Source of the DNA: Halapricum desulfuricans
GTDB lineage: Archaea > Halobacteriota > Halobacteria > Halobacteriales > Haloarculaceae
Reading direction: 5' to 3'
Assembly: GCF_017094465.1 (NCBI RefSeq)
Contig: NZ_CP064791.1
Span: 1,612,001-1,676,000, forward strand
DNA length: 64,000 bases
Shown here: one piece after another, positions 13,205 through 18,479 of the stretch
Layout: each line of letters starts with the position of its first letter
Numbering within the stretch: the first letter of the stretch is position 1
The notes under the pieces: model-generated
Seen by the model: only the letters and a program-made list of their open reading frames with translations
Told to the model about the DNA's origin: nothing
The model's database searches: none
Translations under genes and position numbers: made by a program

Positions 13205-13219
13205 GGTAATGATATTACC
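13205..13219. promoter_or_regulatory. Palindrome in the pseudokinase/transducer divergent gap
   Basis: The arms GGTAAT and ATTACC flank the centre GAT in the 145-base gap between the divergent pseudokinase and phototaxis-transducer genes. It lies 37 bases upstream of one start and about 95 bases upstream of the other. A regulator site is possible. No regulator gene adjoins it. Confidence 0.4.
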
Positions 13220-13313
13220 GGCTCGGACGGTCGCGGATCCGCCATCGGTCGGTGTTATCACCGCTGAAAATCGAGGGCGTGGGTTTTACTGTGCGAAATC
13301 GAATTGTCTGTCG

Positions 13314-15617
13314 ATGAAACCGTCGAAACGATCGCTGCTTCCGGCAGCGGTTCGTCAGAGCTACGCGATGCGGCTGGGGGTCGCACTCGCGTTCTCCATC
13401 GTGGTGATCGTCGCGTTCGGTGGCGTGATCAGCGCACAGACGACCACACAACTACAGGAGAACGTCGAAACGGATCTGACAGCTCAGTCGAACACCGAGG
13501 CGAGCCAGATCGATACCTGGCTTCGGTCGATCGAGGGCGACGCACGAACGACCTCGAAACTCCCGGTCTACGCCAGCGGAGATACCGACGAAATAAAACA
13601 GGATCTCGATTCGCTGGTCGCATCCGGACACACACCTGACGACGTGATCGGGGTGCACTACCTGAATACCGAGAACATGACGTTCGTGACGAGTTCCGCC
13701 GACAGGATGATCGGTGTCAACGCCAGCGTGCAGGGTGCCCCGTTCGCGACCGATCCACCGTCGTTCGACGGGAGTGACGACGTCGTCCTGACCGAACCGT
13801 TCTCGGTGTCGGTCGTCGACCACCCGATCGTCGCCGCGATCACGCCGATCGAGGGAACCGACGATCGAGCGCTCGTGTACATGATCGATCTCTCTGCTCA
13901 CGCCGATCGGATCGCGGACAACGCCGGCGACACGACGACCGTCGTGATCGACCAGCAGGGTCGCTACGCGGCGCATCCGAATCAGAGTAAACTCCTGACG
14001 GACGCAGGTGTCGATGGCTTCGATCTCGGAGCCGGTGAGAGCGACTTCACGTCCGACGATGGGACGCTTCGAAGTGCTACGGGACTGGAGACGGCCGACT
14101 GGACGGTGATGGTCCAGACCCAACGGGCGGACGCCTACGCGCTGGCCGATCAAATCAACGCCGACCTGCTCGGGTTGGTCCTGCTCGCGATCATCAACCT
14201 CGGACTCGTCGGCGTGACGATCGGCAGTAATACGATCACGTCGCTGCGTCGGTTGACGGCCCGTGCCGAGGAGATGGCCGACGGCGACCTCGACGTGGAC
14301 CTGCGGACGACGCGCGAAGACGAGATTGGGTCGCTCTATCAGTCCTTCGCGGCGATGCGCGATTCCCTCCGGGAGAAGATCGACGAGGCCCAGGAGGCGC
14401 GTCAGTCCGCCGAAGGGGCACGCGAATCCGCCGAGCAGGCCCGCCGCGAGGCCGAGAGCGAACGGGCCGAGATGGAGGCGATGACCTCCCATCTCACCTC
14501 GAAGGCGAGCGAATACGAGTCCGTACTCGATCAGGCCGCCGAAGGTGATCTGACCGGCCGGGTCGATCCCCAGAGCGAGAGTGACGCGATGGAGCGGGTC
14601 GGCCAGAAGATCAACGCGACGCTGGATTCCCTGGAGCGGATCGTCGCCGACGTCGAGTCGTTCTCCTCGGAGGTGCTCACCGCCTCCGACCGCGTCCAGC
14701 GCAACGCCGACGAAGTCAGCGAGGCGAGCCAGCAGGTCACCAGTTCTATCGACGAGATCTTCGAGGGGGCACGGAAACAGAACGAGCGACTCAACGACGC
14801 CTCCGGCGAGATGGAAAACCTCAGCGCAACTGCCGAGGAGGTCGCATCCTCGGCCCAAGAGGTCGCAGAGACCTCTCAGGCGGCGGCCGAAGCCGGCGAG
14901 GAGGGTCGTGAGGCCGCACAGGAGGCTATCCAGGAGATGAACGCCATCGAGGCCGAGACCGAGGAGATGGTCGAGGAGATCAACGCGCTGGACGACGATC
15001 TCGACGAGATCAACGACATCATCAACGTGATCACCGAGATCGTCGAGCAGACCAACATGCTGGCGCTGAACGCCTCTATCGAGGCCGCTCACGCCGACGG
15101 ACAGGGAGACGGGTTCGCCGTGGTCGCCGACGAGATCAAGAGCCTCGCCGAGGAGACCAAAGACGCCGCCGGCGATATCGAACAGCGCATCGAGCGCATC
15201 CAGTCACAGGCCGGCGATACCGTCGAGACGATGGAGTCGACGAGCGAGCGGATCACGGACGGCGTCGAGACCGTCACCGAAACCGTCGACGCTCTGGAGA
15301 CGATCGTCGACCGAACCGAGGACGCCGACGCGGGTATCCAGGAGATCGACGACGCGACGGCCGAGCAAGCTCGGACCGCACAGGAGGTAATGCAAACGAT
15401 CGACGACCTCTCGGCGATCAGCCAGCAGACCGCACAGGAAGCGGATACCGTCGCCGCTGCGGCCGACGATCAGGAGCACGCGATCACCGAAGTCTCCGAA
15501 TCCGCGACCGATCTCCGCCGGCGCGCCTCCGATCTCGAACAGCTACTCGAACGCTTCACCGTCGAGACGACCCCCTCGGGAGCGTCGTCTCCGGAGCCCG
15601 CAACAACTGACGATTGA
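13314..15617 (+). CDS. HtrII-like phototaxis transducer (methyl-accepting chemotaxis protein)
   Basis: This 767-residue transducer has TM1 at about residues 20-41, an extracellular sensing region of roughly 240 residues, TM2 near 281-303, a HAMP domain ([19 protein letters not shown]), then long coiled-coil helices with the signalling tip [20 protein letters not shown] and [15 protein letters not shown]. It ends two bases before the rhodopsin gene, the usual htr-sop arrangement. Total length is close to that of the Halobacterium HtrII, which has a large external domain, unlike the short Natronomonas type. It should relay the rhodopsin signal to CheA, and may also sense a small molecule outside the cell. 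Confidence 0.9.
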
Positions 15618-15619
15618 TC

Positions 15620-16333
15620 ATGGATCTAACAATCACCACCTGGTTCACGCTTGGCACCGTCGGCATGGCACTGGGAACGATCGGACTGATCGTGGGGTAC
15701 ACCCGCCTGTCCGAGGCGCATCGCCTGCCGTTTCTGGATCTGGTCGGCGTGACGGCCATCGCGACAGTCGCGTACGCGCTGATGGCGCTCGACGTCGGCA
15801 CGGTCACGAGCGCTCGCGGGGCCACGCTGTACATCCCGCGGTACGTCGACTGGCTGTTGACGACGCCGATGCACATCGCCTACGTCGCCTTCCTGGCCGG
15901 GGCCGACCGGGAGACGATCGCGAAACTCGGGGCGCTACAGGCCTCGACAATCGTGCTCGGGTTCGCCGGCGGGATGGTCGCCTCGCCGCTGAATCTGGTG
16001 CTGTTCGCTGCCGGTGGCGTCGCCTTCGGCGTCCTCGTGTACTGGCTGTACACCGACATCGGCGAACTCGCCCGCGAGCGCGACGACATGACCCTGGCGC
16101 TGTACCGGACGCTACGGAACTTCGTCGTCGTCCTCTGGATGATCTACCCGGTCGTCTGGCTGCTCGGCGAAACCGGGTTCGCCTTCATGAACACCGAAAC
16201 CGTCTCGCTTGTGGTCACCTACATCGACATCGTGGCCAAGGTCGGCTTCGGACTGCTCGCCTATTCGGCATTGCGGGACATCGAGTTCCTCGAATCGTCC
16301 GAAGACAGCGTGATGGCGACACCGTCGGACTGA
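15620..16333 (+). CDS. Sensory rhodopsin, SRII-related with non-standard residues
   Basis: This 237-residue seven-helix retinal protein carries RYVDWLLTTP (counterion Asp77), YIDIVAKVGFG with the Schiff-base Lys207 and Asp203, and IYPVVWLLG in helix F. Overall it reads most like SRII (LYRTLRNFVVVLW against the SRII version LYVRLRNLTVILW). Helix G keeps a tyrosine (Tyr201) equivalent to the SRII residue that contacts HtrII. The proton-donor position of bacteriorhodopsin (Asp96) is Tyr88, as expected for a sensor. Ala206 replaces the threonine characteristic of SRII. His85 sits at the bacteriorhodopsin Leu93 position. The ATG at 15620 is preferred to TTG at 15614. It is co-transcribed with its transducer. 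Confidence 0.9.
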   Translation: MDLTITTWFTLGTVGMALGTIGLIVGYTRLSEAHRLPFLDLVGVTAIATVAYALMALDVGTVTSARGATLYIPRYVDWLLTTPMHIAYVAFLAGADRETIAKLGALQASTIVLGFAGGMVASPLNLVLFAAGGVAFGVLVYWLYTDIGELARERDDMTLALYRTLRNFVVVLWMIYPVVWLLGETGFAFMNTETVSLVVTYIDIVAKVGFGLLAYSALRDIEFLESSEDSVMATPSD

Positions 16334-16460
16334 TCGGTTTCCCCTCTTTGGTCTGTACGGCTTGTATCGGCGGACGGCAATCGCGCACTGATTCGCGCGG
16401 GACTTCCGGGATTCAAATCCCGCTAGCCACTTCGCTCAGCACAAAACGTTCGTCGCAGAA

Positions 16461-16484
16461 AGCGGGCCGAGCGCGATTTGAACC
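16461..16484 (-). repeat. Copy of tRNA-Lys 3' end (att-like remnant 1)
   Basis: On the minus strand it reads GGTTCAAATCGCGCTCGGCC and continues CGCT. It matches the T-arm and acceptor 3' strand of the tRNA-Lys at 18406-18479, in the same orientation. The rest of the tRNA is absent. Confidence 0.7.
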
Positions 16485-16485
16485 A

Positions 16486-16622
16486 GCATACGGCGAGCGG
16501 AGCGAGCCGTTTCACCGGGTGCGAACGAAGTGAGCGCCCGGCCTTTTGGATTCTAAAGTTTTCGAGGAGTGGTGCCCGCAACGCGGCGCAGTCGCGTGAG
16601 GACACCCGACGCTGAAAAGTTT
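16486..16622 (+). repeat. Three-hairpin intergenic element, copy A
   Basis: The element runs from AGCATACG through the conserved linkers CCGTTTCACCGG, TTTTCGAGGAGTGGTGCCCG and CACCCGACG to GAAAAGT. Variable stems lie between them. It is almost identical to copy C at 18126-18262. Confidence 0.8.
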
Positions 16623-16623
16623 A

Positions 16624-16648
16624 GAGCGGGGCGAGCGCGATTTGAACC
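16624..16648 (-). repeat. Copy of tRNA-Lys 3' end (att-like remnant 2)
   Basis: The minus strand reads GGTTCAAATCGCGCTCGCCC followed by CGCTC. It sits directly after copy A of the three-hairpin element. Confidence 0.65.
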
Positions 16649-16751
16649 ACGCGAAGACGGTCCTGCTCGCTCACGATGTTCGCTGCGCGGGCTGCGGCTT
16701 CTCTCATTCAAATTGCCCTGGCGTTTACATTGCTCATGCCGTTCGTGGGAA

Positions 16752-16775
16752 AACGGGGCGGGCGCGATTTGAACC
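16752..16775 (-). repeat. Copy of tRNA-Lys 3' end (att-like remnant 3)
   Basis: The minus strand reads GGTTCAAATCGCGCCCGCCC. It is followed on the plus strand by the beginning of another three-hairpin element (AGTATACGGCCAGCGAAGCG) that then degenerates. Confidence 0.65.
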
Positions 16776-17074
16776 AGTATACGGCCAGCGAAGCGAGCCG
16801 TTTCACCGGATGCGACTGGTGAATGCCCAGCACGGAGTGGGAGTAAACCGATAACGGACGCTGCATCCATTTCTACTCGCTCCGTGAGGACGAGGCTTGG
16901 CGCCCTGTCGCTCAGATGCTAAACGAGGTGCCCACTTCGGCACTCCTGATACGGCACGTTGTAGTTCGAGCGGTATCTCGACAAGCGCGGGGACTCCAGC
17001 GACGCACGGGATCGGCCAACGATAGGCGAGGCTATGGCTGTTGGACCGGAAAACAGAAGCGGTAGATGGCAATT

Positions 17075-17680
17075 CTACGGCGGCCCCTGTCCGCGGTCGT
17101 TCGGCGGTCCATTCGGATTATCCACCCACTGGCTCGGCGGATTGCATTTACGGGTTCGAACTATAACTTTACCGACATTCACGCTCTTCGGATCGTTGAT
17201 AACATACTCGTGACGGCTGACACGCTCGTAGAACATGTAAAGGATGTCGTCCTCGAGATCATCCGGGAGGGGGCAGTCGATGTCTCCAACAGTCTCTCCA
17301 GCAGGCTCGTCAAAGCCGAGGTCACTGAGTGCTCGCGATGCGCAGTTGTTTGGATTCTTGAAGAATCGGTAGTCGTCCAGTCTCCTATTGAAAAGCCCGA
17401 TAATCTTCTCGTCGTCACCGGCCGTTTCGCAGGTCGCCTCGACGCCGACCTCGTCGAGCTCGCAGTCGTAGCCGTCCTCCGTTTCGGTCGCATACAGGAC
17501 AAAGTTTCTGCCATCATTCTCTCCGAAACAGATCTGTGAGCACCCACAGAATCTGATCTCCGTGGGCGGCGTGGCACTCGCGGTTCCGGAGTACGCTGCG
17601 AGGCCGACCGTCGCCATCCCGGCCGTTTTCAGGACTGTTCGTCTGTTGATTCCTCGACTTTCGCGCTGTTGATCAGACAT
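17075..17680 (-). CDS. Tat-exported cysteine-rich protein of unknown function
   Basis: This 201-residue protein has a clear twin-arginine signal (INRRTVLKTAGMATVGLAA, likely cleaved after TASA near residue 36). The mature part is rich in cysteines, including FCGCSQICFG, YDCELDE, ATCETAG, NNCASRAL, DIDCPLPDD and RKCNPP, which suggests disulfides or metal binding outside the cell. The C-terminus is rich in Pro, Asn and Gly. GC content is lower than in neighbouring genes, and the gene sits between the two copies of a 242-bp direct repeat near tRNA-Lys. That placement suggests cargo of a former mobile element. I do not recognise the family; a secreted factor is possible. Confidence 0.7.
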   Translation of the reverse strand: MSDQQRESRGINRRTVLKTAGMATVGLAAYSGTASATPPTEIRFCGCSQICFGENDGRNFVLYATETEDGYDCELDEVGVEATCETAGDDEKIIGLFNRRLDDYRFFKNPNNCASRALSDLGFDEPAGETVGDIDCPLPDDLEDDILYMFYERVSRHEYVINDPKSVNVGKVIVRTRKCNPPSQWVDNPNGPPNDRGQGPP

Positions 17681-18110
17681 GAAACGGTCATTGGGGGTAT
17701 CTCATCCGGAGAGTGTAGTTATACAGTTGATACTTCGGCTGACAATTGACAGACCTGCTTGTACATAATCTCGGAGGGGACTTGTCTCGTTGAATGATAA
17801 AACGGCGTCGGAGGTCGGTCGATCATTTCCTGTCCCCTCTAGCTACCGTCCCGAAGTCATGCGTTCTTGCTCCCGTTCTGGGCGATTGGATGCGGACGCA
17901 AGAGTTCCTACAAAGCGCGTCGTAAAAACGAGAAGAACCATCCTACTCGCTCCCCGCTGACGGGTTCGCTCGTTGAGGGTGGAGTAGTTGACAGCGATCC
18001 GGGCGCGATTTGAACCGGAGGAAGACGGTCGCTCGCGCTAAGACTCCAGGATTCAAATCGCTTGTAGCCACTTCGCTCCCCATGAATTATTCGTCGCAAA
18101 GGCAGGTCGG
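17681..18110. other. Gene-free stretch, lower GC
   Basis: No gene is supported here. The first 250 bases are AT-richer than the surroundings and include the promoter region of the Tat protein gene. Position 17997-18016 is another tRNA-Lys 3'-end copy, followed by a segment ending in a T-arm-like inverted part (ATTCAAATCG near 18051). Confidence 0.6.
17997..18016 (-). repeat. Copy of tRNA-Lys 3' end (att-like remnant 4)
   Basis: The minus strand reads GGTTCAAATCGCGCCCGGAT. It keeps the T-arm and most of the acceptor strand of tRNA-Lys. Confidence 0.65.
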
Positions 18111-18124
18111 TCGCGATTTGAACC
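18101..18124 (-). repeat. Copy of tRNA-Lys 3' end (att-like remnant 5)
   Basis: The minus strand reads GGTTCAAATCGCGACCGACC. It is the most diverged copy and abuts the second three-hairpin element of this region. Confidence 0.55.
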
Positions 18125-18125
18125 A

Positions 18126-18262
18126 GCATACGGCGAGCGGAGCGAGCCGTTTCACCGGGTGCGAACGAAGTGAGCGCCCGGCCTTTTGGATTCTAAAGTT
18201 TTCGAGGAGTGGTGCCCGCAACGCGGCGCAGTCGCGTGAGGACACCCGACGCTGAAAAGTTT
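18126..18262 (+). repeat. Three-hairpin intergenic element, copy C
   Basis: It has the same motif order as copy A. Stem 1 is CGGC/GCCG around GAGCGGAGCGA, stem 2 is CCGGGTGC/GCGCCCGG, and stem 3 lies between GGTGCCCG and the CACCCGACG linker. Confidence 0.8.
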
Positions 18263-18263
18263 A

Positions 18264-18287
18264 GAGCGGGCCGGGCGCGATTTGAAC
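18264..18287 (-). repeat. Exact copy of tRNA-Lys 3' end (att-like remnant 6)
   Basis: These 24 bases are identical to 18403-18426 of the intact tRNA-Lys locus, 139 bases away and in the same orientation. A perfect match of this length to the T-arm, acceptor 3' strand and a few bases beyond is the classic shape of an attachment site. Confidence 0.75.
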
Positions 18288-18405
18288 CACGCGAAGACGG
18301 TCCTGCTCGCTCACGATGTTCGCTGCGCGGGCTGCGGCTTCCCTCATTCAAATCCCGCCGGCTATCCACAGCAATCGCTCGCGAATTTGCGAGCGATAGA
18401 GTGAG

Positions 18406-18479
18406 CGGGCCGGGCGCGATTTGAACACGCGACCGTCTGATTAAGAGTCAGACGCTCTGCCGGACTGAGCTACCGGCCC
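18406..18479 (-). tRNA. tRNA-Lys (anticodon CTT)
   Basis: The minus strand folds into a full cloverleaf. The acceptor stem is GGGCCGG with CCGGCCC, the D-arm is GCTC...GAGC, the anticodon stem is TCTGA/TCAGA with loop CTCTTAA (anticodon CTT), and the T-arm is GCGTG-TTCAAAT-CGCGC. Length is 74 with discriminator G. CCA is not encoded and no intron is present. Downstream on the minus strand lie at least six partial copies of its 3' end. Confidence 0.96.

Follow-up and report, generated by a model that had tools for sequence, protein, structure and literature searches.

Hairpin-bearing tail units behind tRNA-Lys(CTT) and other tRNA genes of Halapricum desulfuricans and related haloarchaea

The tRNA-Lys(CTT) locus

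The DNA analysed here (the window) is a stretch of 64,000 nucleotides from Halapricum desulfuricans (contig NZ_CP064791.1, positions 1,612,001 to 1,676,000). It contains a tRNA-Lys(CTT) gene which anchors an array of partial copies of its own 3' end. The features of the array, in order from the tRNA, are:

18405..18479, minus strand: tRNA-Lys(CTT), anchor of the array (ARAGORN; Rfam RF00005, 67.7 bits)
18288-18404: tail unit 1, whole span
18374..18397, strand not applicable: H1 hairpin of unit 1 (inverted repeat I8; DNA fold)
18347..18361, plus strand: inverted copy of the T-arm in unit 1, reaching partly into the acceptor (sequence; pairing with copy 1 in the fold; family statistics)
18288..18346, minus strand: H2 hairpin cassette of unit 1, the same module lying at 16648-16706 (repeat D1; module sharing)
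18264..18287, minus strand: direct copy 1 of the tRNA-Lys 3' end, 24/24 identity (repeat analysis)
18124..18263, plus strand: type-A genome-wide repeat, between direct copies 1 and 2 (repeat analysis)
18100..18123, minus strand: direct copy 2 of the tRNA-Lys 3' end (repeat analysis)
18016..18099, minus strand: tail unit 3, with H1, inverted T-arm (18052-18061) and H2 (repeat analysis; flank search)
17992..18015, minus strand: direct copy 3 of the tRNA-Lys 3' end (repeat analysis)
17075..17680, minus strand: 201-aa ORF with an apparent Tat-type leader, the sole gene inside the array (ORF list; family search; region common to genome G001 at 97%)
16751..16774, minus strand: direct copy 4 of the tRNA-Lys 3' end (repeat analysis)
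16648..16750, minus strand: tail unit 5, with inverted T-arm (16707-16718) and the same H2 as unit 1 (repeat D1)
16624..16647, minus strand: direct copy 5 of the tRNA-Lys 3' end (repeat analysis)
16484..16623, plus strand: type-A repeat, second copy (repeat D1)
16460..16483, minus strand: direct copy 6 of the tRNA-Lys 3' end (repeat analysis)
about 16380..16459, minus strand: seventh, truncated unit, with H1, inverted T-arm and the start of H2 (repeats D6 and D7; sequence)

The 24-nt family has seven members: 16460, 16624, 16751, 17992, 18100, 18264 (100%) and the tRNA itself (18403). The original prediction placed six partial tRNA-Lys 3' ends in direct orientation within 2 kb, one of them (18264-18287) identical to the tRNA over 24 bases; its positions agree with ours within 0-5 nt, and the identity is confirmed at 24 of 24. 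It read the ends as scars of repeated integration and remarked in passing that they might be part of a composite repeat, which is the right reading. In the whole 2.88-Mb genome there are six occurrences of the 13-mer GCGCGATTTGAAC, all of them at the tRNA-Lys locus; its reversed control does not occur.

There are two kinds of spacer in the array: tail units, built of H1, inverted T-arm and H2, and the 140-bp type-A repeat. A block of 264 bp is present twice (16459-16722 and 18099-18362; 95% identity, spacing 1640), so the six copies of the tRNA-Lys end do not represent six independent events; their number is in part the result of segmental duplication. One interval of 1.2 kb holds a single ORF (17075-17680), which matches no Pfam or NCBIfam family. 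No integrase is seen between the tRNA-end copies within the window. An Rfam search of the window returns the tRNA and one chance-level match only, and nothing for the tail units. Elsewhere in the window (13209-16333), a methyl-accepting transducer-like ORF is directly followed by a bacteriorhodopsin-family gene (PF01036); the two resemble a sensory rhodopsin/transducer pair.

Tail units at tRNA genes of Halobacteriales

Three genomes of the genus were compared: the window genome (G000), with 46 tRNA genes, and those of two further species, G001 and G002. For the window genome, 45 tRNAs were matched by Rfam and 46 genes are in the later ARAGORN set; their flanks were searched for the tRNA's own 3' end. 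Such a copy is found downstream of 20/46 tRNA genes in G000, and of 26/42 and 15/43 in the two further species. About half of the tRNAs in the window genome have an own-end copy, always downstream and direct, about 75-140 nt off. Under a strict cut (at most 3/22 mismatches within 700 nt), the three genomes have direct copies downstream of 49/131 tRNAs, inverted copies downstream of 1/131 and upstream copies at 1/131; the ends of other tRNAs are found in 1/655 cases. The first copy lies at a median of 101 nt from the tRNA and the median period is 122 nt; the spacing is free of cargo.

Tail units are real, widespread and structurally defined. Read in the sense of the tRNA, a unit consists of an H1 hairpin (for example TTCTGTCGCTCGCAAATTCGCGAGCGAC), an inverted T-arm, an H2 hairpin, and a direct T-arm with acceptor strand and discriminator. 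It is about 100-125 nt long and non-coding. H2 hairpins form several families, such as CCAGTCGCGCGCAGCG-AAG-CGAGCACGTCTGG or GGAAGTCGCAG...CCGTCTTCC. H1 is enriched after tRNAs with units; it is not enriched after bare tRNAs or after last copies, and the inserted segment is therefore taken to be H1, inverted T-arm, H2 and copy. In all, 273 distinct units were collected at 36 isoacceptor types. Among these, the inverted T-arm tracks the loop type of the copy (TTCAAAT with TTCAAAT in 176, TTCGAAT with TTCGAAT in 14, mixed in 3+3). In a minority the inverted T-arm extends toward the acceptor, and it does so more for the unit's own tRNA than for tRNAs with the same T-arm core (p=2e-9; the loci are phylogenetically related, and p-values here and below are rough). 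Decay of the copy and decay of the inverted copy are not significantly correlated.

The units were followed among genomes by exact matching of a pattern that represents one T-arm type (GGATTTGAA-N35-65-GGTTCAAATCC), with the reversed pattern as control. The pattern is present in 38/53 sampled Halobacteriales genomes and in 0/242 other Halobacteriota; the control gives 0. Tail units are found in 31/59 relatives, and among the matches listed from a pattern scan of 84,980 genomes, all are haloarchaea. An intact tRNA lies upstream in sense at 106 of 120 pattern loci. Of the other loci, most are next to a tRNA fragment, the end of a contig or a tRNA that went undetected, and three are apparently chance matches. 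Where there is an upstream tRNA, 76/112 unit copies are identical to its final 22 nt, and other isoacceptors do not fit the acceptor portion of the copies. An H2-type query has matches in 27/29 family genomes. All 17 matches in G000 and G002, the genomes with mapped tRNAs, lie just downstream of tRNAs, and an intact tRNA is close by at 27/30 loci examined.

A scatter of tRNA-end-like units away from tRNA genes would have favoured a family of repeats whose likeness to a tRNA end is only superficial. The units do occur genome-wide, yet only at tRNAs and each with the end of the local tRNA. Together with the confinement of the 13-mer to the Lys locus, this rules out such a family.

Viral carriage was considered and rejected: pattern matches in IMG/VR are due to chance or to bacterial prophages with a palindromic tRNA T-arm, and there is no haloarchaeal match among these viral contigs. 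In five contigs which are apparently bacterial prophages (L251, L253, L254, L255 and L258), a near-perfect T-arm palindrome, ATGGATTTGAACCGTG..CACGGTTCAAATCCAT, is an inverted duplicate of the tRNA att site at the prophage end.

The tyrosine recombinase family PF00589 has seven matches in the window genome and 28 together in G001, G002, G006 and G010. Six tRNAs of G000-G002 have an integrase less than 1 kb downstream, and a tail unit lies between tRNA and integrase in 0/6. An integrative element of about 7.7 kb is found at tRNA-Glu(TTC) (G000:C1:2218007-2225834); its integrase is 0.8 kb away from the tRNA. The far end of the element is a tRNA copy of roughly 70 nt, followed by a decayed tail unit, an order that fits insertion of the element between tRNA and unit. 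The far copies at two loci (L165, L227) are plain and att-like, with neither an inverted T-arm nor H2. Tail units share the direct partial tRNA 3' end with att scars; they show neither association with integrases nor element-sized cargo. An origin of the Lys array as serial integration scars of proviruses or plasmids, as first proposed, is thereby very improbable. It would account for the direct tRNA 3' ends, for the ORF at 17075-17680 as cargo, and for the integrases at other tRNAs of the genome, but not for uniform 100-nt cargo-free units with common H1/H2 anatomy at 36 isoacceptor types; the empty intervals at integrase-bearing tRNAs, the different build of genuine far att copies and the viral contigs also speak against it.

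The type-A repeat is a separate entity. It is 140 bp long and is found genome-wide, also away from tRNAs, which rules it out as a part of the tail unit. Its layout is AGCATACGG..hairpins..GGAGTGGTKCCCG..GAGGAMACCCGACG. At two protein genes of the window genome (L006:1240-1640 and L016:1290-1640), the 3' end of the gene is directly duplicated on either side of the type-A repeat, over about 50-60 bp. This resembles the situation at the tRNA, the flanking repeats being long and variable. The two copies in the window carry the helix GGTKCC/GGMACC (16571-16612 and 18211-18252) as GGTGCC..GGACACC and GGTTCC..GGAAACC. The type-A repeat may also be a selected hairpin, since pairing is kept through a G-C to T-A change between copies.

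Strand bias, turnover and exchange of hairpins

The hairpins of tail units are strongly oriented. Of the units with the tip motif CGNAGCGAG, 79 have it on the tRNA-sense strand and one has it on the antisense strand. The sense strand folds more stably with both RNA and DNA parameters (175/224 with RNA parameters). For unit 1 of the window, fold energy is not below that of dinucleotide shuffles (z-scores near 0), so the energy of this single sequence carries no weight and the case rests on pairing across the family. The strand bias could reflect an RNA role, in which units transcribed together with the tRNA would form a hairpin trailer and serve as a terminator, as a decoy for tRNase Z or as an alternative pairing partner of the T-arm. 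The bias of 79:1, the more stable sense fold with RNA parameters and the retained pairing of inverted T-arm with copy are all compatible with this. However, G.U is not in excess over A.C in the T stem of the sense strand (42 vs 30, p=0.19), and predicted G.U pairs number 227 in sense folds vs 244 in antisense folds. Apical loops are mostly C(GNA)G triloops, which are exceptionally stable in DNA, and GNRA or UUCG loops are few. The presence of units also varies within the genus, and Rfam has no match. A functional RNA is for these reasons doubtful as an explanation; we lean towards hairpins that act as folded DNA, though RNA is possible.

Units are gained and lost repeatedly, as the original prediction supposed: whole units differ between related species. 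There are 39 isoacceptors common to the three species; units are present in all three at 10, in none at 8 and variably at 21, and the count differs at 28. Presence which is so poorly conserved suggests that tail units are probably without essential function. At the tRNA-Lys locus itself, where relatives were to be compared for inserted elements, the difference is exactly one whole tail unit: the array of G001 lacks precisely unit 1, with a flank that is 97% identical. The more distant G002 has an equivalent of unit 1, so the simplest account is that G001 has lost the unit precisely. G001 and G002 also differ at Leu(TAA) and Leu(GAG), where entire units are present or absent ahead of a common flank. 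Several of the unit differences could be losses or plain tandem duplication. An apparently identical pair of units at Arg(GCG) and Asp(GTC) in G001 was set aside; the two tRNAs are neighbours, and a single unit was probably counted from each.

Arrays have a polarity. In 29 arrays the first copy resembles the tRNA more closely than the last copy does, and in 3 the reverse holds (p=2.6e-6), in line with decay as distance from the tRNA grows. At four loci (L043, L073, L304 and L309) the T-loop of the copy reads TTCACAAT instead of TTCAAAT, with an inserted base which is common to successive copies in the array; the variant is seen at Arg(TCG), Pro(TGG) and Thr(TGT). This suggests that tail-unit copies derive from earlier copies.

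H1 and H2 assort independently between tRNAs. In the three genomes, the nearest relative of an H2 is at another isoacceptor for 44/64 units, with identities up to 96% (maximum for shuffled cores, 0.60). There are 55 pairs of units at different tRNAs whose H2 are at least 90% identical, and only 3 of the 55 also share H1. Conversely, six pairs have H1 at least 85% identical and 0/6 share H2. Because H2 is shared across tRNAs without H1, the boundaries of exchange would lie at the T-arm copies, with the copies staying local. This modular exchange is the strongest indication of a cassette-like process.

We give a probability of about 0.5 to the following reading: the Lys locus is one array of a family of haloarchaeal tRNA-tail hairpin cassettes which turns over by recombination at T-arm copies. 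H2, and also H1, would be exchangeable hairpin cassettes that enter and leave arrays, with breakpoints in the T-arm copies. New or renewed units would appear next to the tRNA, while outer units would decay or vanish through recombination between direct repeats. Gene conversion, together with correction inside the hairpin, might keep each copy matched to its local tRNA. We infer from these patterns that the units are mobile; any enzyme involved is likewise inferred. The driver could be a trans-acting tyrosine recombinase working on a folded strand, or ordinary homologous or microhomology recombination. A double-strand recombinase using both T-arm copies would often flip H2; given the observed 79:1, it is not flipped.

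Turnover might also proceed with no dedicated mobility at all. Old duplications of tRNA ends would then grow and shrink by homologous recombination at the 22-nt direct repeats, haloarchaea being polyploid, and gene conversion at short T-arm homology would shuffle the hairpins. This is possible, if rather unlikely. The almost identical units in tandem at Leu(TAA) and Thr(TGT) of G001, the 264-bp duplication in the window, the duplicated gene ends around type-A repeats (L006, L016) and the correlated presence of units in G000 and G001 (odds ratio 7.8) are all in keeping with it. Yet H2 is exchanged across tRNAs and genera with 10-12 nt of flanking identity, which is short for homologous recombination, and polarity toward the tRNA is not expected from simple unequal crossover.

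Comparison with known systems

The cassette reading has a more specific form, in which haloarchaeal tRNA 3' ends would carry integron-like arrays. The units would be single-stranded hairpin cassettes (inverted T-arm, H2, T-arm) in one strand orientation; a trans-acting tyrosine recombinase would read the T-arm as core site, and new cassettes would enter beside the tRNA. Like integron attC sites, tail units are tandem folded hairpins with inverted core boxes, a variable tip and a fixed orientation, and new units would be nearest the anchor. They differ in being virtually cargo-free, so that gene cassettes between sites are not found, in being anchored at tRNA T-arms, and in having unrelated sequences. 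The integron integrase IntI (TIGR02249) scores over the cut-off in 0/39 genomes, and the one feature which may point to recombination of a single folded strand is the strand-biased hairpin. This specific form is unlikely. If true, it would be a previously unnamed class of non-coding mobile cassette in a large fraction of the tRNA genes of an archaeal order.

The rtT repeats of E. coli tyrT/tyrU (RF00391) are tandem units of 178 bp, each of which starts with about 19 bp of the tRNA-Tyr 3' end; rtT RNA is said to have a role as trailer RNA. Tail units are similar in that they are direct tandem repeats downstream of a tRNA, each with the 3' end of that tRNA. By its general description, rtT is limited to one enterobacterial tRNA family, whereas tail units are found at 36 isoacceptor types across Halobacteriales; they also have an inverted T-arm and exchangeable hairpins. 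The window has no match to RF00391.

No description of the tail unit was found in the open literature, which was the scope of the search; a prior description in the subscription literature is possible. The tail units replace a view of many integration scars by a defined repeat family. This affects genome annotation, since partial tRNAs in haloarchaea are commonly taken as provirus borders, and it affects island finders that rely on tRNA-end duplications. Tail units also provide, at dozens of tRNA genes, a natural setting in which to ask how short hairpin DNA moves and what keeps its copies matched to an essential gene.

In Haloferax gibbonsii LR2-5, 11 partial tRNAs adjoining full ones are described as remnants (PMC7921747); the hairpin unit, the H1/H2 modules and the spread across tRNAs and across the order do not figure in the parts of that report consulted. 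The MITE, PATE and SMR of Haloquadratum are short palindrome-rich repeats without transposase (PMC3119063). They insert at many sites, whereas tail units are found only at tRNA 3' ends and have the local tRNA end. In Methanopyrus kandleri, half of the tRNAs are followed at about 10 bp by a palindrome, which the authors call genome-specific (PMC5217627). Here too a hairpin follows many archaeal tRNAs at a constant distance, but it consists of an 18-nt palindrome only, without copies of the tRNA end.
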